IMG/VR virus record: IMGVR_UViG_3300012005_000045
Location: 1-26,577 of that record
Direction: 5' to 3' (one strand)
DNA: 26,577 bases
Origin: a virus
Below the pieces are notes generated by a model. The model was not told the origin of the DNA. It ran no database searches and worked only from the letters and a program-made list of their open reading frames with translations. This document shows positions 601 to 12,716 of this stretch, piece by piece. Each line of letters opens with the position of its first letter. Within the stretch, counting starts at the first letter, position 1. The position numbers were made by a program, and so were the translations under genes.

Positions 601-779
601 TTGACAAAGAGGCGTGGATATCGAGATGCGCCGCCCAGTTCAGGAAAATGGCGGGAGTTTCTCTATCGGATGCGGGGGAGATGGCATCAATAGCATTTGA
701 CGAATCGCATAGTGATTTTGAGGATGATCCGGAGGGCGCAGCGGATTCAGAGATGAGCTATTGGGATAACGATGAGTGA
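597..779 (+). CDS. Small acidic phage protein of unknown function (60 aa)
   Basis: ATG 597 overlaps the previous stop (ATGA). The end (TGA 777-779) overlaps the polymerase start at 772 by 8 nt, so it sits in a tight operon with the polymerase. The N-terminal half could be helical (EAWISRCAAQFRKMAG); the C-terminus is strongly acidic (FEDDPEGAADSEMSYWDND). Small acidic proteins of this kind recur next to phage polymerases, but I cannot assign a role. Confidence 0.75.
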   Translation: MIDKEAWISRCAAQFRKMAGVSLSDAGEMASIAFDESHSDFEDDPEGAADSEMSYWDNDE

Positions 780-3700
780 CGCGCGCCTAGCCGCGATCGA
801 CTACGAGACGTATTCCGAAGCCGGATTCGTCGCGACACCCGAGGGATGGACGTGCCTGCCGGGCGCATCGGGCAACAAAAAGGGCCTGTCCATCGTCGGC
901 GCGTCCGTCTATGTCGAGCATCCGACCTTCCGAGTGTTGTGTCTATCGTACAATCTGAAAGATGGGACCGGCAAGCACCGTTGGATTCCCGGCGACCCGG
1001 CACCCGCTCCGCTCTGCCGTCACATTCAATCCGGCGGGCTCGTCTCGGGCTGGAACAGCGGCGGGTTCGAGACGAAGGTGTGGGCGTGGTGTGTCCGGCA
1101 GTATGGCTGGCCCGCCGTCCGTCCCGAGCAGTGGCGGGACACCATGGCCGCCGCGCGCGCCTACGCCCTGCCCGGTGCCCTCGCCAAAGCGGCGGAGGTG
1201 CTGGGAACGGTCGAACAGAAAGACAAGCGCGGTAAGGCGCTACTGGACAAATTCAGCATTCCGCGCAATCCGACACGGAAAGACCCGCGCCGCCGCATAC
1301 TGCCCGAGGACGATCCGGTGGATTTCGCCGCGCTGCAGGATTACTGTGATCAGGACGTAGCCACCGAACTGAGCATCGGCGAGCAGATACCGCCGCTGAG
1401 TGACGGCGAACTCGCGGTATGGCAGTGTGACCGCGTGATCAACGACCGTGGCGTCCGGATAGACGTTGACGGCGTGAACGATTGCATCGCCATCATCGAA
1501 CAGGCTCACGCGCTGTATAACGCTGAACTCCTGACGCTGACGGGCGGTGCGGTCACGAAAGCCAGCGAGATCCAGAAACTCATCGGGTTCATCGCGGCGT
1601 TCGGCGTTCACACAGATTCGCTGGACGAGGAGCATCTGACCGCGCTGCTCGCCCGCCCCACACTGCCTCTCGTCGTCCGCCGCGTTCTCGAAATACGCGC
1701 CGCCATCGGTTCGGCCAGCGTGAAAAAGACCTTCGCCATGCGCAACCAGGTAGCGGCGGACGGTCGGCTGCACGATTTGTTCAATTATCACGCTGCTCGG
1801 ACCGGCCGGACAACTGGTGAAGGCCCGCAGCCCACCAATCTCCCCAATTCCGCCGGCGTGCTCGTCCTCGAATGTGAATCGTGTACCCGGCAATACGGAC
1901 GGCATCTGTCACACTGCCCGTGGTGCGCGGCGTCGGCGCAACTCTCCTGTCAGCGCGAGTGGGGCATCGATTCAGCGGAACTCGCGCTCGAAACGATTAA
2001 AACGCGCTCCCTAGCCTACGTGGAGTACGTGTGGGGTGATGCCATGCTCGCGGTCTCCGGATGCTTGCGCGGACTGTTTACCGCTGCGCCAGGGTATGAC
2101 TTGATCTGTTCTGACTATTCCGCCATCGAGGCCGTTGTGATTGCGGAGATCGCGGGCGAATCGTGGCGTCAGGAAGTGTTTCGCACGCACGGGAAGATAT
2201 ATGAGATGAGTGCTGCGAAGGTCACAGGTGTAACGCTCGAAAGCCTGCTCCAGTTCAAGGAAGAGACCGGGCAGCATCATGCGTCCCGTAAGCTCGGAAA
2301 AGTGATGGAGCTCGCCTGCGGATTCCAGGGCTGGGTAGGTTCAATGAAGGCGTTCGGTGCGGACGAGTTCATGGACGAAGAGGGCATGAAACAGGCCATC
2401 CTATCCTGGCGCGAGGCGTCCCCGGCAATCGTGGAGTTATGGGGGGGCCAGCAACGCAACTGGAAAACCGAGTACTACGGTGCGGAAGGCATGTTCGTGT
2501 TGGCCGTGTGCAACCCCGGTGCGGTTTTCGAGTACCACGGAATCCAGTTCCAGATGCGCGGCAACGCAGTGTTTGTGAAACTGCTGTCCGGTCGCGAGAT
2601 GGTTTACCACCGTCCGATGCTCTACCCGAGTGACCGTCGCAAGGGGACGTACACAATCAGCTACGAGGGATGGAACTCGAACCCCAAGAACGGCCCGACC
2701 GGATGGCTACGGATGGAGACGTGGGGCGGTAAACTGGTGGAAAACTGCATAGCCGGGGGAACCGACGTTTTGACGGATCGGGGGTGGGTCCCTATTGAAG
2801 AAGTAAAGTCCTCGGATTTGGTACACGACGGGGTTGACTTCGTAACCAACGGCGGGATATTATCCAAATCTGTTCAAGCGTGCATCCCGATTGACGGGGT
2901 GTGGATGACTGAAGATCACGAGGTACTGACAAATGACGGATGGACCACTGCCAAGACAAGCCCGGAACCTTACCGGCCAAAAATTCGGGATGTTGATTGC
3001 TATTCGTCCGGGAAAGACGGATGGAAAAAAAAGATGGTGGGTATACATGTGCGACTGCGGGAAACTCTGCGAAAGGCAGGGGTCGGATGTAAGTTGCGAT
3101 GTGAAAGAGGGGCGGAATCCGAGTTGCGGGTGCATGAGAAAACACCAGATCGGCGCAAAAACACGGACACATGGGATGAGCGAGCATCCGGTGTACGCTG
3201 TGTGGCGATCGATGAACGATCGGTGTCGTCTACCTTCGCATCAAGCATGGAAAAACTATGGTGGAAGGGGAATCTTCGTTTGCGCGAAATGGCAAGAATC
3301 CTTCGAGAATTTCTGGGGGGATATGGGGGGGTCGTACCAGAGTGGATTGGAACTGGACCGGCGGGACAACGATTCGGGCTATTCCCCAGAGAATTGCCGA
3401 TGGGTATCGCGAAGGGCAAATACGATGAATCGCCGGGGTACAATCCGAACGGTAGACGTCCCCGAGCTAGCGAGAACGTCCGGGATAAGCCGGTCAACGA
3501 TATATTACCGTCTGGCTCATGGATGGGAGGTCGATCAGCTCGTCCGACCTCCCGACAGCACAAACCGGTTTTCGACATTTTGAACTGTGGCCCCCGTCAT
3601 CGATTCGTGGTGCGGGGGGACGTAGGCCCCTTCATCGTTCACAACTGCGTCCAAGCGACCGCCCGTGACATCCAATGGTTTGGGATTCTCGCGCTCGAAG

Positions 3701-3873
3701 CGGCGGGGTATCCGATAGTCCTTCACGTCTACGACGAGGATGTGGGGGAAGTGGTCGAGGGCTACGGATCGGTCGAGGAGTTCGAGTGCATCATGTCCAC
3801 AATGCCCCCCTGGGCGGCCGGGTGGCCGGTGAAGGCCAAGGGCGGATGGCGTGGCCGGCGGTATCGTAAATGA
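772..3873 (+). CDS. Family A DNA polymerase with 3'-5' exonuclease, interrupted by an intein
   Basis: Phage replicative polymerase. The 3'-5' exonuclease comes first: D10/E12 in AIDYETYS (Exo I), WNSGGFE (Exo II) and YCDQDV (Exo III). A four-Cys element follows (C368, C371, C382, C385). Palm and fingers motifs: motif A SDYSAIE with D448 and E453; motif B RKLGKVMELACGF with K510; motif C VYDED with D988/E989. Residues 659-958 are an intein, so the mature enzyme would be 733 residues, a normal size for phage enzymes of this type. The junction KLVEN/CVQATARDI corresponds to the conserved block around E. coli Pol I NAPMQGTAAD, next to the active site, so splicing should be needed for activity. 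The start overlaps the upstream gene by 8 nt. All catalytic motifs are intact. Confidence 0.95.
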   Translation: MSDARLAAIDYETYSEAGFVATPEGWTCLPGASGNKKGLSIVGASVYVEHPTFRVLCLSYNLKDGTGKHRWIPGDPAPAPLCRHIQSGGLVSGWNSGGFETKVWAWCVRQYGWPAVRPEQWRDTMAAARAYALPGALAKAAEVLGTVEQKDKRGKALLDKFSIPRNPTRKDPRRRILPEDDPVDFAALQDYCDQDVATELSIGEQIPPLSDGELAVWQCDRVINDRGVRIDVDGVNDCIAIIEQAHALYNAELLTLTGGAVTKASEIQKLIGFIAAFGVHTDSLDEEHLTALLARPTLPLVVRRVLEIRAAIGSASVKKTFAMRNQVAADGRLHDLFNYHAARTGRTTGEGPQPTNLPNSAGVLVLECESCTRQYGRHLSHCPWCAASAQLSCQREWGIDSAELALETIKTRSLAYVEYVWGDAMLAVSGCLRGLFTAAPGYDLICSDYSAIEAVVIAEIAGESWRQEVFRTHGKIYEMSAAKVTGVTLESLLQFKEETGQHHASRKLGKVMELACGFQGWVGSMKAFGADEFMDEEGMKQAILSWREASPAIVELWGGQQRNWKTEYYGAEGMFVLAVCNPGAVFEYHGIQFQMRGNAVFVKLLSGREMVYHRPMLYPSDRRKGTYTISYEGWNSNPKNGPTGWLRMETWGGKLVENCIAGGTDVLTDRGWVPIEEVKSSDLVHDGVDFVTNGGILSKSVQACIPIDGVWMTEDHEVLTNDGWTTAKTSPEPYRPKIRDVDCYSSGKDGWKKKMVGIHVRLRETLRKAGVGCKLRCERGAESELRVHEKTPDRRKNTDTWDERASGVRCVAIDERSVSSTFASSMEKLWWKGNLRLREMARILREFLGGYGGVVPEWIGTGPAGQRFGLFPRELPMGIAKGKYDESPGYNPNGRRPRASENVRDKPVNDILPSGSWMGGRSARPTSRQHKPVFDILNCGPRHRFVVRGDVGPFIVHNCVQATARDIQWFGILALEAAGYPIVLHVYDEDVGEVVEGYGSVEEFECIMSTMPPWAAGWPVKAKGGWRGRRYRK
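2920..2924 (+). promoter_or_regulatory. Internal ribosome binding site for the nested endonuclease
   Basis: GAGGT sits 8 nt upstream of ATG 2933. It lies inside the codons for the conserved block B residues DHEVL of the intein, so the same bases serve protein splicing and initiation of the nested gene. A TGA at 2927-2929, in the endonuclease frame, blocks read-in and makes ATG 2933 the first usable start after it. Confidence 0.6.
2933..3583 (+). CDS. HNH-family homing endonuclease nested out of frame inside the intein (216 aa)
   Basis: Likely site-specific DNA endonuclease promoting intein spread. Residues 11-20 (RNLTGQKFGM) and a CxC...CxC knuckle (C40/C42, C65/C67) are the zinc-ribbon-like head typical of free-standing phage HNH endonucleases. 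Residues 81-135 carry the YGGRGIFVCAKW-type segment. Residues 141-157 (LDRRDNDSGYSPENCRW) are the HNH core, followed by MNRR. Residues 172-198 look like a helix-turn-helix (VPELARTSGISRSTIYYRL). It has its own ribosome site (GAGGT, 8 nt) and its own TGA at 3581-3583. It starts at the end of intein block B and stops within block F, occupying the place of an in-frame endonuclease domain but in the +1 frame. The family is clear; its expression and target are inferred. Confidence 0.9.
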   Translation: MTDGPLPRQARNLTGQKFGMLIAIRPGKTDGKKRWWVYMCDCGKLCERQGSDVSCDVKEGRNPSCGCMRKHQIGAKTRTHGMSEHPVYAVWRSMNDRCRLPSHQAWKNYGGRGIFVCAKWQESFENFWGDMGGSYQSGLELDRRDNDSGYSPENCRWVSRRANTMNRRGTIRTVDVPELARTSGISRSTIYYRLAHGWEVDQLVRPPDSTNRFSTF

Positions 3874-3914
3874 AATGATGGGTTGGACAACTGAACAATG
3901 GAGGGTTCGACCAC

Positions 3915-4181
3915 ATGACTGCAAATACTGGATGGTGTCCTTCGTGTCTCTGTGAGCGTGAGAGTTTACCGCCACCAGCAGAGGGTAGCTGCGCGCACTG
4001 CTGCAACCACTTGATGAAGCTGGAAAGCGGAATATGCCATGAAATAGGCTGCTCAGGACAAGACCCCGATATGTGCAGAAACAACCCGCAGGATTGCTCG
4101 ATCATTCGCAAGGTGATGGAGTCGAACGATGAAAGTAACCGGCTGGCCGACACCAGCCACGAAAAAGGAGACGAAGCATGA
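3915..4181 (+). CDS. Cys-rich small phage protein (88 aa), probable zinc binder
   Basis: ATG 3915 follows GGAGG at 3901-3905 with a 9-nt spacer, 41 nt after the polymerase stop. The protein carries many Cys residues (CPSCLC near residue 8, CAHCC near 26, then CHEIGC, MC and DC), which suggests one or two zinc knuckles or disulfides. The C-terminal third is charged and probably disordered. Its stop overlaps a further ATG at 4178 as ATGA. It lies in the replication operon, but I do not recognise a specific function. Confidence 0.7.
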   Translation: MTANTGWCPSCLCERESLPPPAEGSCAHCCNHLMKLESGICHEIGCSGQDPDMCRNNPQDCSIIRKVMESNDESNRLADTSHEKGDEA

Positions 4182-4225
4182 ATGGTAGAATTATTGGTAG
4201 CCATATTCGCTCCTTTCAGCGATGA
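4178..4225 (+). other. Orphan translation start: AAGGAG plus a 15-codon ORF at the module border
   Basis: A strong ribosome site (AAGGAG 4165-4170, 7-nt spacer) precedes ATG 4178, which is coupled to the previous stop. The frame closes after 15 codons at TGA 4223-4225. ATG 4182 in another frame also gives only a very short peptide. This is the last start in the + strand module before the convergent lysis genes. It may be the remnant of a gene cut off when the modules were joined, or a real micropeptide. The 62 bases to 4287 contain a weak GGCG/CGCC stem without a T-tract, so I do not call a terminator. Confidence 0.3.
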
Positions 4226-4287
4226 GGTTAGGGGTGATGGGCGCTGATACGCCTGTTGCCCTGCATTATACTACAGACGCTTCATAC

Positions 4288-4791
4288 TTACTGCACTGCA
4301 ACCCCATCTGCCATCAGCAGCTTTTGCAGTTGATCTAGTCGGCTGGCAATTTGCTCGACTACTTGTGGATTGTATTCGGATAGGTATGCTGAAGCATCTG
4401 TGCCGGTGGGGGTTCCATCAGTGCTTTTGGGATGGTCAGTGGTTTTGGGGTCTGGACTGCAACCGGAATCGGAGTGCAGCACCCTGACAGCAGGATGAGC
4501 ACGGTAATAAGCATCAATGCTATTGGTAGCGTAGACTGTGTTTTGTTCAGCATTTTTCATCTCCTTTGCGTGTTCTTCATCTAATTTCTTCGCTGCCTTG
4601 GCCGCTTGCTCACCGATGGTCTTGGTTTGTGCCACGAATGAGTCATAGTGGGCCTGCACGGCATCCTTCAGTGCGCCCTGGTACTTCCATGCCGGGATAG
4701 CGCCGGATGCCAGCCCAGCAGCAAAGCACAGGGTGGCGACGTACACGATCACCATTGGATTGTTCATTATCCTTGCGAGTAGCCAGTTCAT
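4288..4791 (-). CDS. Rz: Inner-membrane spanin (Rz-like)
   Basis: i-Spanin that, with Rz1, fuses inner and outer membranes in the last step of Gram-negative lysis. It has one N-terminal membrane segment (about residues 12-31), then a long charged, helix-prone periplasmic region (residues 40-85, rich in K/E/A), and a Pro/Thr-rich linker. Its start overlaps the stop of the DUF6527 gene (ATGA, 4788-4791). The o-spanin is encoded wholly within it in another frame (4359-4553), the classic Rz/Rz1 layout. It is the last gene of the late operon. Confidence 0.85.
   Translation of the reverse strand: MNWLLARIMNNPMVIVYVATLCFAAGLASGAIPAWKYQGALKDAVQAHYDSFVAQTKTIGEQAAKAAKKLDEEHAKEMKNAEQNTVYATNSIDAYYRAHPAVRVLHSDSGCSPDPKTTDHPKSTDGTPTGTDASAYLSEYNPQVVEQIASRLDQLQKLLMADGVAVQ
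4359..4553 (-). CDS. Rz1: Outer-membrane lipoprotein spanin (Rz1-like), nested in Rz
   Basis: o-Spanin of 64 residues. It has a signal peptide with a hydrophobic core (ALMLITVLILLSGC) ending in a lipobox, LSGC, near residue 25, then a short Pro-rich mature part (TPIPVAVQTPKPLTIPK), as expected for Rz1. The start has GGAG upstream at a 7-nt spacing. The whole gene lies inside Rz in a different frame. Family, size and position all agree. Confidence 0.85.
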   Translation of the reverse strand: MLNKTQSTLPIALMLITVLILLSGCCTPIPVAVQTPKPLTIPKALMEPPPAQMLQHTYPNTIHK

Positions 4792-7075: not shown

Positions 7076-7251
7076 GGTCGCTCGATTATACTGGTTAATT
7101 CGATTCTTGTGGTAACTGTGCTGGCCAGCCCGATTTGCCGCGTTACGGGGCTGTTGAGCCGGAGCCGGAAGGCGACGAGCACGCCGTGCAACCAGGCGGG
7201 CAGAAACGTCCGGGCGGCGAACGTTCTGGCGCTAAAGCTACGGATTGACAT
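7072..7251 (-). CDS. 59-aa protein with decapeptide repeats, paralogue of the next gene
   Basis: ATG 7251 lies inside the end of the 769-aa gene (14-nt overlap) and the stop overlaps the next ATG (ATGA at 7072-7075). The first half is basic/aromatic (SFSARTFAARTFLPAW). The second half has repeats LNSPVTRQIG, LASTVTTRIE and LTSIIERP, matching the repeat of the next gene including its closing ERP/ERV. That shared pattern, plus perfect packing between neighbours, is the case for a real gene despite a weak ribosome site. Function unknown. Confidence 0.55.
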   Translation of the reverse strand: MSIRSFSARTFAARTFLPAWLHGVLVAFRLRLNSPVTRQIGLASTVTTRIELTSIIERP

Positions 7252-9547
7252 CTACAAACGCCACGGCGGTTCTGTTCCCGCTGGCATCCACCGTTATCCG
7301 CGCACGCTCGACCAGCACGCTCGCCTGGTTCACGCTCCAGAAGGATTCAGTTGCCGTACCCGCCCCCGTCACCACGCCGTGCAGGATCGCGTCGTTGACT
7401 AGCTTGGACTGTGCGTAGGTCAGGCCGTCGGACATTAGGGCGGCGTCGATCTCTGCTGCACTCGGCAGCAAAGCCACCGCCGTCTTGGTATTTACAATAT
7501 CCAGCAATTCCGCCGTCAATTCGTCCCGTACCGCTGCGCGGATCTGCGTCGCGGTTGGATTCGCCATCAACTGCGTATGCTCGTCGAAGGTCACACCGCC
7601 CCATTGCAATACCCCGTCCTTAAACACCATCGTGTCCTCTGAATGGTAATGCTTGTTGGGAGTGAGTCCGGTATCAACTACGTCACCTACGGCCTGATAT
7701 TGAGTATTTATTCCCGCGCCAAAGCCGTTTGTTTTGAGCATCAGATCGTAATACCCTGGGTAATAAAGCCCTGTCAAATCCCGCTCCGTAAAGGTCGTGC
7801 TGATGTTAGCTCCTGCGGCAGAAAAGGTTTTGAATGTCTGGTCGCTGAAATCCAGCGTCAGCGCATCAGTGTCGCGGAAGAATTTCAGCGTTGGCGATAA
7901 TCCAGTACAAGGTTCGTAATCTCCAGAGGTCGCATTTTGCCTCTCGATGTACCACGTTATCCGCTTGAACGTGTCGCTTTTTAGCGAGGTGTATACAATC
8001 CTTTCTGTAATCCGCAGCGTCTCTACTATGCTGGCTGCACCCTGCCTGCTTGACGTTAATTTGTCGCTGAAACGATTCCGGTCAACGATGACTACCGTTG
8101 AGTTTTTGCTGCTGACAACCTTGTCGGCTGATCTTAATACCTCAACAATGTCGCGCAGTGTACCGTTCTTGCGCACCAGCGTGTCCAGTAGCCTTAACTG
8201 ATCTGCAATCACGGATGAGGCTTGCTTGCTAGAGGTCAAAGCCTCTGTGAGGCGCGCCCTATCATTAACAACCGTCGTGGCAGACTTTGATACCGCCAGA
8301 AGGTCGGTTAATCGAAAGCCGCTTGTAACAGTACGGGTTTTGTCGTTCAGACAGAAGACCCCGCCAAACGTAAACGTGGCCGAGCTTGTGTTGGCAGACG
8401 AACTCGATGCAACTGGATAGTGGTATTGATAGCTGATATTTTCCCTGAGTGCGAGAGAAATTTCAGTGCCGAATGCTACTAGGCAAGCTGGATCATAATA
8501 GGCTTGCAGATACTTAGTCCCGTAGGTGCCAACAGCAGGATCAACCCGATTCTTGAACCACAACGGAGTGCTTAACGTGTGCGTTATCGAGGCTGTTGAG
8601 TAGGCCAAACTACCAGCAACGTTCTCGACCAACCGAACTTTTGCAGTTGTGGCAGAAAGGTAATCACCAGCTATCGCCTGCCCATGAACCGAAGCGCCAT
8701 TGAACGCGCTGTTGGCCGTATTCGTCACCGCGTTAAGGAAATATTTTCCAGTCGTTCCCGCAGGCCATGCTGTTTGGTTCAGAACGCCGTAAAGGAGATA
8801 ACTAGAATTAAATCCACCAACACCAAAGTCTTTTATGACATAAGAGGTTTCCTGGGCCGTCAGCGCCGTGGCGACTATGCAGTCGGCATAGGTTGCGAGC
8901 GCTGTTCCGGCTTTGGTGTAGAGGGTGAGGTCAACACCGGCTGAAAATGTGCCAAGTGTGAAGTTTGCATAAGTGCCGCTAATGGTTGGAGTGCCACCAT
9001 TATTAAGCGACTGCATCGGGTAGAAATACTGCGTATCATTCGATGCTGTTAATGCCAATACCGAAGAAGCTACATTTGTCGATCTTCCAGAATCAGAAAA
9101 TAAAGCACCATACAACCCGCCGTATTGCCCACCCAACGAAGAGAGCTTATACAGCGAGGAGTAATAAACTGTGCTTTTAGATAAAGTCCCGGACAGGCCC
9201 CCTGCGTGCTGAGTTCCAGATACTCTGTCCCTTACTCTGATCCCGAAAGTTGTGGTGTTTACGCCGAAGATACTCTCGAACACATAGGCATTATCGGTTC
9301 CGCTTGCTACTACAAATGCTATCCCTGCCTGACTGTTAGTTCCGTATTCAACAACCGCGTTAAGAGCGCTCGCTGCCGTCATATCTACTTCGGCATTGAT
9401 AGACCAGTTAGTAGTGAAATATCCAGCGCCCTTATCGAGATAAGCGCCATTCGCGGCATTCGCAGGAACGTTAGTACCGGTTGCGGTCGTAGTGTTTACC
9501 GCAACAGCAGTACCAAATATAGTTGAGCCCGATATATCTTCAGACAT
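7238..9547 (-). CDS. Large tail-associated protein with 20-residue repeats (769 aa)
   Basis: Probably a virion tail or fibre protein. The N-terminal 400 residues are Ser/Thr/Gly-rich and beta-like, as in lectin-like or fibre head domains. Residues 412-511 are five consecutive 20-residue repeats, each opening R-[LFS]-x-[DE], with a partial sixth. The C-terminal 250 residues include an aromatic-rich segment (ERDLTGLYYPGYYDLML) and a helical stretch (PTATQIRAAVRDELTAELLD) typical of phage baseplate/fibre adaptor proteins. Its start overlaps the stop of the SGNH protein (TAATG at 9547). No catalytic motif is seen. Receptor or host-surface interaction is inferred from context. Confidence 0.7.
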   Translation of the reverse strand: MSEDISGSTIFGTAVAVNTTTATGTNVPANAANGAYLDKGAGYFTTNWSINAEVDMTAASALNAVVEYGTNSQAGIAFVVASGTDNAYVFESIFGVNTTTFGIRVRDRVSGTQHAGGLSGTLSKSTVYYSSLYKLSSLGGQYGGLYGALFSDSGRSTNVASSVLALTASNDTQYFYPMQSLNNGGTPTISGTYANFTLGTFSAGVDLTLYTKAGTALATYADCIVATALTAQETSYVIKDFGVGGFNSSYLLYGVLNQTAWPAGTTGKYFLNAVTNTANSAFNGASVHGQAIAGDYLSATTAKVRLVENVAGSLAYSTASITHTLSTPLWFKNRVDPAVGTYGTKYLQAYYDPACLVAFGTEISLALRENISYQYHYPVASSSSANTSSATFTFGGVFCLNDKTRTVTSGFRLTDLLAVSKSATTVVNDRARLTEALTSSKQASSVIADQLRLLDTLVRKNGTLRDIVEVLRSADKVVSSKNSTVVIVDRNRFSDKLTSSRQGAASIVETLRITERIVYTSLKSDTFKRITWYIERQNATSGDYEPCTGLSPTLKFFRDTDALTLDFSDQTFKTFSAAGANISTTFTERDLTGLYYPGYYDLMLKTNGFGAGINTQYQAVGDVVDTGLTPNKHYHSEDTMVFKDGVLQWGGVTFDEHTQLMANPTATQIRAAVRDELTAELLDIVNTKTAVALLPSAAEIDAALMSDGLTYAQSKLVNDAILHGVVTGAGTATESFWSVNQASVLVERARITVDASGNRTAVAFVDVNP
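8015..8314 (-). repeat. Five in-frame 60-bp repeats (20-residue units)
   Basis: Units begin RLTDLL, RLTEAL, RLLDTL, RSADKV and RFSDKL, each exactly 20 residues, followed by a partial RITERIV from 8014. Shared positions: R1, D/E4, hydrophobic 6, K/R near 10, and a hydrophobic pair near 16-17. Exact length conservation suggests a repeated coiled or beta-roll segment. Confidence 0.75.
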
Positions 9548-11689: not shown

Positions 11690-11869
11690 ATGAAAATTTG
11701 TAGAAAATGTGGGCAGCCGTTTGCGGCACGAACCTGTTTGCCCTGCGACGCAAAAAGAAAGGGCCACAAAACTCACTCAACGTCAGATAAGGACACTCAA
11801 AATGAAAACACTCATACGGTTGTTGTTGTTGCTCGCCACATTCACTCTTGTATCATGCGGTGGAAATAA
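11690..11869 (+). pseudogene. Zinc-ribbon ORF fragment, possible HNH-endonuclease remnant
   Basis: ATG 11690 has GAAGGG 7 nt upstream. The first 25 residues, MKICRKCGQPF then CLPCDAKRKG, form a CxxC...CxxC ribbon like the N-terminus of phage HNH/endonuclease VII-type proteins, which normally continue into a basic helical region and the nuclease core. Here the frame runs after about residue 30 into the start of the lipoprotein gene, read in another frame, and stops at 59 residues without any nuclease motif. I read it as a truncated remnant; a tiny functional zinc protein is the alternative. Confidence 0.4.
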
Positions 11870-12716
11870 TCAGCCCCAACTACACAGAAGCGCTGCCGTT
11901 GAGACTGCGCCCTGGATCGAGAAAGGGGCGCTGTTTGCAGGTCAACCCTCAGAGGGGGCGGAATCCACGCCTATTGTCTGGAATAACGAATTATTCTACG
12001 TCATCGACTACATAGATGCGGGCGGCGTACATACCCGCATAACTAGAGAGTCTGACCACAGTACAATTTCTGACAGGATAACCGGGCTGGCATTTGTTTC
12101 GGCTATCGTTAATAACGGCACCCTGTATATTTTCGGTTCCAACAGCACCAATGGTGGCTCCAAAATCAACATGGTGTCAACTACCGATTTGGTAAACTGG
12201 ACTCCAAAACAAACTGTCTTCATTGTCCCAAATGTCCAGCTTTTCAATAATTCTGTGTCCGCTTCACCAGCAGGTTTTGTTATGGCCTATGAAATTTGCG
12301 AGTCAGGGCAAGTTTGTTTTAACGTGCGCTTCCTGCAATCTCCAGACCTGATACATTGGGCCGGTATCGGCGGCACCTATGAACGAGACTACTATACGGC
12401 TTGCCCAACCGTCCGATATGTGGATGGATTTTATTATCTCTTTTATCTCTCTTCATACGACAATTTTTATGCAGTTAATGTCTCGCGTTCAACCGACCTC
12501 GTTGCTTGGCAGTTTTCGCCCATCACTGTTCTTTCTCCATTGGACGGAGACGATAATCACAGTAATGCCTCTGACATAGATATGGTTGAATTTAACGGGC
12601 AAGTGCGCATAATCTATTACAATGGTTCGCAGGACGGCAGTCTGAATCCTGCCGTCGGGTTACGCGAAGCGCTGTTCAATGGTTCTCTTTCTGAATTTGT
12701 ATCTAAATTTTTCTAA
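11802..12716 (+). CDS. Predicted outer-membrane lipoprotein with GH43-like beta-propeller fold (304 aa), cargo gene
   Basis: Signal peptide MKTLIRLLLLLATFTLVSC ends in lipobox LVSC (Cys19), with AAGGA 8 nt upstream; the longer in-frame start is rejected because the signal peptide begins here. The mature part has repeated strand-rich blades with WNNELFYVIDY, NGTLYIFGS, DGFYYLFYLSS and NGQVRIIYYNG, plus S-x-D-L-x-x-W repeats (STTDLVNWT, SPDLIHWAG, STDLVAWQF). This pattern is typical of five-bladed propellers of the GH43/GH32 type. Catalytic acids are not certain. It is the only + strand gene inside the tail operon and ends 4 bp from the convergent fibre gene. Exposure on a lysogen's surface, for example to alter sugars or block superinfection, is inference. 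Confidence 0.75.
   Translation: MKTLIRLLLLLATFTLVSCGGNNQPQLHRSAAVETAPWIEKGALFAGQPSEGAESTPIVWNNELFYVIDYIDAGGVHTRITRESDHSTISDRITGLAFVSAIVNNGTLYIFGSNSTNGGSKINMVSTTDLVNWTPKQTVFIVPNVQLFNNSVSASPAGFVMAYEICESGQVCFNVRFLQSPDLIHWAGIGGTYERDYYTACPTVRYVDGFYYLFYLSSYDNFYAVNVSRSTDLVAWQFSPITVLSPLDGDDNHSNASDIDMVEFNGQVRIIYYNGSQDGSLNPAVGLREALFNGSLSEFVSKFF

Follow-up and report, generated by a model that had tools for sequence, protein, structure and literature searches.

In standard accounts, the nuclease of an intein is an in-frame domain, is absent, or is encoded beside a split intein. The bifunctional inteins of the LAGLIDADG or HNH type (e.g. PI-SceI and the Ssp GyrB HNH intein) are contiguous, splice in cis, carry their nuclease between blocks B and F and reside in conserved replication genes of which intein-free alleles exist. 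In the 'fractured genes' reportedly described by Dassa et al. in 2009, free-standing endonuclease genes lie in the gap of split inteins. Among published cases, the one nearest to the locus described here is the ShiLan domain of mycobacteriophage methylases, in which an HNH is inserted out of frame (PMC11855218). Finally, a preprint on actinobacteriophage inteins of 'non-canonical architecture' (Gosselin et al., bioRxiv 2025.01.02.630785) may bear on priority; that preprint aside, full-text searches of the literature yielded no account of an intact intein carrying an HNH gene in another frame. The intein analysed here shares with the bifunctional inteins its contiguity, the location of its nuclease between blocks B and F, its replication gene host and the existence of intein-free alleles, but the nuclease is a separate protein read from another frame, and the in-frame segment at the corresponding place is a linker predicted to be disordered.

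The DNA studied, referred to below as the window, is a virus record of 26,577 bases (IMG/VR virus record IMGVR_UViG_3300012005_000045). Its plus strand carries, at positions 772–3873, the gene of a family A DNA polymerase precursor (PHROG 17, E 5e-82; Pfam DNA_pol_A, E 2e-7; tblastn matches to phage polymerases), the translation of which is broken at GGKLVEN/C...HN/CVQA (slashes mark the intein junctions) by an intein of 300 codons (2746–3645, plus strand) inserted at the EN/C.QA site of the polymerase. The exteins, i.e. the intein host gene (772–2745 and 3646–3870, plus strand), and the intein are spanned by a single 1033-aa ORF, which excludes a split intein or a fractured gene. The splicing motifs are all in the polymerase frame: Cys1, block B (T55-E-D-H58), block F (VFDILNCGPRHRFVV) and the C-terminal ...VHN/C, which comprises block G and Cys+1. 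The N-terminal splicing region (blocks A and B; 2746–2951, plus strand) contains C1, T55 and H58, invariant in alignment A2, and the C-terminal region (blocks F and G; 3568–3645, plus strand) contains the invariant residues D277, G282, R284, R286, H299 and N300; C1, T55, H58, H299 and N300 are invariant in an alignment of 23 intein relatives. The coordinates and motifs assigned to the intein by the first-pass annotation were thus all verified, and the element looks like an intact intein, presumably active in splicing to judge from its sequence. Note that motif C of the polymerase, which lies in the C-extein (positions ~3720–3750), reads VYDED instead of the usual HDE; VYDE is also found in Stenotrophomonas phage B2.

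The +1 frame of the intein harbours a complete gene for a 216-aa HNH endonuclease (2933–3583, plus strand). Its ORF runs from intein codons 63/64, where block B tails off, to codon 279, which lies inside block F. A TGA in the same frame (2927–2929, plus strand) lies directly 5' of the ATG at 2933, and a Shine–Dalgarno-like GAGGT (2920–2924, plus strand), written in the block B codons for E-V and conserved in same-site relatives, lies 8 nt 5' of this ATG. The first-pass annotation had read the same features from the DNA, namely a 216-codon gene with its own upstream stop and ribosome site, extending from the end of block B into block F, and every one of them holds. The profile searches of both frames that it had proposed gave a more mixed outcome: the HNH protein matches PHROG 374 and PHROG 3377 with E-values of 3.4e-53 and 6e-47, respectively, while curated intein profiles match the window's own intein only below the cut-off (TIGR01445, intein_Nterm, against the N region: E 0.006). 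TIGR01445 matches 16 of 20 members of the intein family (best E 9e-7), and one of the host proteins, L048, passes Pfam Intein_splicing (36.1 bits for a cut-off of 35.8). A third long open frame (192 aa, 3000–3578, minus strand) overlies the nested region; it has no coding support and probably results from the constraints on the two plus-strand frames. Elsewhere in the window, among the lysis and tail genes, the ORFs at 7239–9547 (minus strand), 11709–12713 (plus strand) and 4289–4791 (minus strand) have no PHROG match at E 1e-3.

Structure predictions mirror this organization. In an AlphaFold2 (AF2) model of the window intein built on the alignment of 23 inteins, residues 1–80 and 268–300 display pLDDT values of 92–94 (92–94 for the N-terminal splicing region and 92 for the C-terminal one), and residues 84–267 (2995–3546, plus strand), predicted to be disordered, have values of ~30–48; this disordered middle coincides with the HNH overlap. 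VIA-align superimposes the model on the Mtu RecA mini-intein (PDB code: 3ifj) with a Z score of 15.0 over 112 residues (2.2 Å), so that the window intein is predicted to adopt a Hint fold interrupted by a disordered overlap. The HNH protein is itself modeled with a mean pLDDT of 84.7; it resembles PacI only weakly (Z 5.9 over 73 residues), and its profile match to I-HmuI is marginal (1u3e, E 0.033). Foldseek alone gave weak matches for both models.

If both frames are under constraint, one may ask what selection sees in each of them. HNH relatives were collected from viral contigs, giving 156 loci that include three named phages and the window. In 51 of these, generally the closest homologues, the HNH gene lies wholly within an open frame of another phase, which is always +1; the other 105 are never contained in this way. 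Each HNH gene was then reshuffled among its synonymous codons, and the stops arising in the host frame were counted. The intein frame of the window contains no stop where 8.17 are expected (P < 0.001). Likewise, the 47 testable nested +1 genes have no host-frame stop against a mean expectation of 7.24, whereas the 103 unnested homologues have 15.5 against 16.4, which indicates that stops have been purged from the intein frame in the nested genes only. Among genes nested in the +2 frame, nine of the ten tested have no host-frame stop (P <= 0.027; e.g. 4.96 expected for SE2, 4.44 for SO-1 and 5.90 for L239), L006 being the sole non-significant one (P 0.144). These counts rule out a chance ORF.

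Substitution patterns point in the same direction. Host codon position 3 usually evolves fastest in the two terminal splicing parts; within the overlap, the HNH wobble takes over as the fastest position. SE2 and SO-1, a +2 pair, differ at host positions 1/2/3 by 0.133/0.017/0.267 in the N part and by 0.077/0.348/0.164 in the overlap; in close +1 pairs, HNH position 3 changes about three times faster than positions 1 and 2. Residue identity in the overlapped intein frame is 0.246, as compared with 0.224 expected from the HNH frame alone, which leaves little or no room for a separate protein constraint on this segment: the second frame is held open but is otherwise nearly free. Selection on the overlap would thus bear on the HNH protein and on the exclusion of stops from the intein frame. 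With the structure predictions and the related loci described below, stop avoidance and frame-specific substitutions bear out the central claim of the first-pass annotation, that of an out-of-frame overprinting in a contiguous intein.

The layout recurs widely. Shewanella phage SFCi1, APSE-1 and Caulobacter phage RLK all have the +1 form, as do their kin according to tblastn hits and three bacterial assemblies (Alicyclobacillus tolerans BL-1 and one MAG each of Alicyclobacillus and Novosphingobium); at an upstream polymerase site, this form is found in Streptococcus Javan113 and Gardnerella AB1. The +2 form occurs in the Salmonella Jerseyviruses SE2 and Ent2, E. coli fPoEco01, Sodalis SO-1, EBPR siphovirus 2, Pseudomonas MR14 and Vibrio 97.13. 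With the splicing-domain query A2, 80 inteins were retrieved, with an HNH gene or remnant in the +1 frame in 72, in the +2 frame in five and absent in three; with the broader splicing query A7, 62 non-redundant inteins were retrieved, 35 with the +1 form, 25 with the +2 form and two with neither. Both sets of counts include some mini-inteins that keep only an HNH remnant, and the two sets partly overlap, so that the total lies between 80 and 142 loci. An in-frame HNH domain was found in 0 of the 80 inteins of the A2 survey and in 0 of the 62 of the A7 survey. The splicing domain is present in ~195 GenBank phage records, many of them labelled only 'DNA polymerase' or 'intein', and the proteins that host it are SNF2/DEAD-type helicases and, at several sites, family A polymerases; plasmids gave no match. 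An overlapped nuclease, in either shifted frame, is therefore the rule in a widespread phage intein family. The first-pass annotation had suggested searching phage polymerases for the layout and had named closure of the intein frame in close relatives as evidence against its reading; the search succeeded in many phages and in both frame classes, and the frame is not closed. Two points amend its reading: the overlap had already been annotated in individual phages, and the window is by no means isolated.

Two damaged copies were noticed in passing: in a 40793-base phage record (L285), the polymerase intein appears frameshifted, with both frames broken, possibly by sequencing errors, and an Arsenophonus endosymbiont genome (L166, 4001–4632) carries a degraded prophage copy of the APSE-like polymerase intein with a truncated nested HNH gene.

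Related polymerases have the same site without intein (EN/VVQA in SppYZU01, EN/LVQA in Scuro and EN/ITQA in B2), to be compared with EN/CVQA in the window and EN/CTQA in SFCi1. Between the window and L008, the HNH proteins are 60% identical and the splicing domains 71%, for exteins that are 22% identical; more generally, in the pairs involving the window with exteins 22–26% identical, identity is 57–62% for HNH and 67–71% for the splicing domain. Distances between HNH proteins correlate with those between splicing domains (rho 0.46, p 0.0005); splicing-domain and extein distances hardly do so (0.11, p 0.12). Since HNH and splicing domain are both far more similar than the exteins and their distances are correlated, the intein and its nested gene have most likely moved together between distant polymerases, as judged from these sequence comparisons. 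The element also decays: the mini-inteins L179 (157 aa), L204 (135 aa) and L221 (195 aa) keep both ends of the HNH frame and have lost the catalytic core, and they outline a path from nested intein to mini-intein in their sequences; in L215 (109 aa) and L252 (125 aa), no recognisable HNH is left.

Altogether, we consider it quite probable that the intein of the window is mobile, contiguous and cis-splicing, and that its homing endonuclease is encoded separately, by a gene overprinted in the +1 frame. Both messages would be carried by a single mRNA. Ribosomes translating the polymerase frame would produce a precursor with a Hint domain interrupted by an unstructured linker of ~180 residues, from which the intein would excise itself, thereby restoring the polymerase. 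Other ribosomes would initiate internally at the ATG at 2933, using the Shine–Dalgarno sequence in the block B codons, and produce a free HNH nuclease. By analogy with homing systems and in view of the distribution of the element, the target of this nuclease may be the empty site of the intein itself: it would cut or nick intein-free polymerase alleles near EN/xxQA in co-infecting phages, and repair would copy the whole intein, nested gene included. Nesting would in this way decouple nuclease dosage from splicing, as proposed in the first-pass annotation.

The expression step has one main competitor, a programmed ribosomal frameshift near block B that would yield a polymerase-N/intein-N/HNH fusion in place of independent initiation. 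The HNH frame does open near block B, and some members (L088 and L090) offer only poor start or Shine–Dalgarno choices. However, all 59 +1 members examined, when the best start is picked at each locus, have an ATG, GTG or TTG with a Shine–Dalgarno match of at least 4 nt 5' of the HNH core; the placements fall into three main positions that differ between subgroups (codon indices 62, 67 and 73), as expected for initiation sites, the start and Shine–Dalgarno sequence of the window subgroup being encoded in the block B codons for H-E-V-L-T-N-D. The Shine–Dalgarno signal carries little weight by itself: under a synonymous null, the block B protein motif alone yields a match of at least 4 nt ~69% of the time; given this figure and the choice of the best start per locus, the signal fits internal initiation without being strong proof of it. 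In addition, the upstream in-frame stop leaves only a short stretch for a shift, and the existence of two frame classes would require two kinds of shift. A frameshift thus appears decidedly unlikely, and internal initiation remains our preferred reading. Mobility of the intein and nuclease as one unit can be questioned on other grounds: a free-standing HNH gene might parasitise an immobile mini-intein as a safe harbour and have its targets elsewhere. The HNH family is otherwise free-standing in phages, the nested +1 members adjoin free-standing HNHs in the tree, and out-of-frame HNH insertions exist outside inteins (PMC11855218). Such a dissociation is nevertheless hard to reconcile with the correlation between HNH and splicing-domain distances and their joint excess of similarity over the exteins, with the location of the HNH gene within the intein at the loci examined and with the intein-free alleles at the same site, and we regard it as unlikely, a single homing unit being the reading retained here.

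Readings that deny the overlap altogether fare worse. The window comes from a metagenome-type collection, and the shifted frame of the HNH might be an artefact of assembly or sequencing indels in an intein that really encodes it in frame, as the first-pass annotation had itself pointed out for assembly indels near 2940 and 3580. The +1 offset is nevertheless found in the independently sequenced cultured phages SFCi1, APSE-1 and RLK and in the Alicyclobacillus and Novosphingobium assemblies, the +2 offset in SE2, Ent2 and SO-1, and indels could not purge the intein frame of stops; an assembly error has a practically negligible probability. A group I intron encoding an HNH protein is highly improbable as well. 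In the Sodalis phage SO-1 record (L275, NC_013600), the polymerase gp38 (1094–4282) and the HNH gp39 (2578–3336) bear the GenBank note 'type I self-splicing intron', and HNH-bearing introns are known in phage polymerase genes (e.g. PMC3428280). Yet Rfam group I and group II models have no match at gathering in the window or in L275, L001 (APSE-1), L002 and L003, and no intron match, even at E <= 1, in positions 2600–3800 of the window; as regards ALTERNATIVES, no intron RNA was found with Rfam in the window or in SO-1. Furthermore, no stop interrupts the polymerase frame, which encodes the complete set of intein motifs and a predicted Hint fold. What the SO-1 sequence displays is an intein with a +2 HNH gene, and, as no intron RNA was found in SO-1, its annotation is most likely wrong. 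The separate, overprinted nuclease gene remains the best account of the locus.

The HNH tree separates the +1 and +2 classes into distinct clades, and unnested HNHs adjoin the +1 group; a single nested HNH clade is not rejected by the AU test (p 0.525), and the tree of the splicing domain, being too short, does not settle the number of nesting origins, so that an origin at least twice is not proven. We nonetheless lean slightly towards a distinct class of phage inteins in which the endonuclease overlaps by rule and starts in or near the conserved block B codons, and which originated two or more times, using both alternative frames. If so, nuclease and splicing could be expressed and lost independently, deletion of the nuclease leaving a working mini-intein. 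The layout would also offer a free HNH gene a simple route to couple to a splicing element without fusion, and a simple route to nuclease loss. It means that an intact-looking nuclease gene is hidden in an overlapping frame across a broad phage family, where annotation misses or mislabels it, as an intron in SO-1 and as an intein without nuclease in Ent2. It further provides a test system for overprinting, in which a folded product and a disordered linker share ~650 bp and selection on the second frame essentially amounts to 'no stops', and predicted splicing domains with a dispensable-looking disordered loop of ~180 residues may be of practical interest.

Compared to fractured genes, the window likewise has a nuclease that is a separate protein encoded beside the intein's splicing parts; in fractured genes, however, the intein and its host gene are divided between two genes, whereas the window has each in one piece, overlapped by the nuclease gene. 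The ShiLan domain resembles the window in that an HNH gene lies in another frame of an insertion that can be read through in the host frame, but it lacks splicing motifs and intein-like ends, is believed to be retained in the host protein and has no detectable ribosome binding site (PMC11855218); the window intein, by contrast, has the full motif set. The Jerseyvirus 'intein-containing DNA polymerase precursor' of Ent2 has a related splicing domain at a different polymerase site, with an HNH gene in the other alternative frame, +2; GenBank describes it only as 'intein, encoding splicing domains'. In this record (L276, Salmonella phage Ent2, NC_023608), the intein at 2501–3397 is annotated with splicing domains only and contains a complete +2 HNH ORF, and a nearby helicase gene has an intein annotated with an in-frame LAGLIDADG nuclease. 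SO-1 gp38/gp39, labelled as a type I intron, has the same architecture as the window, with gp39 overlapping gp38 in +2. The same holds for the Hamiltonella phage APSE-1, the record of which (L001) also carries, at 4513–4717, 3' of the polymerase and near the antirepressor gene, a C4 antisense RNA with its a1/b1 target and an isrK-like RNA. The architecture of its P45 polymerase and P46 HNH protein is exactly that of the window: P46 overlaps P45 in +1 and is annotated from an internal start. In APSE-1 as in SO-1, the overlap is annotated without explanation in the literature examined. The overlapping ORF itself has therefore been annotated before, as APSE-1 P46 and SO-1 gp39, and the layout to which it belongs is recurrent and well supported.
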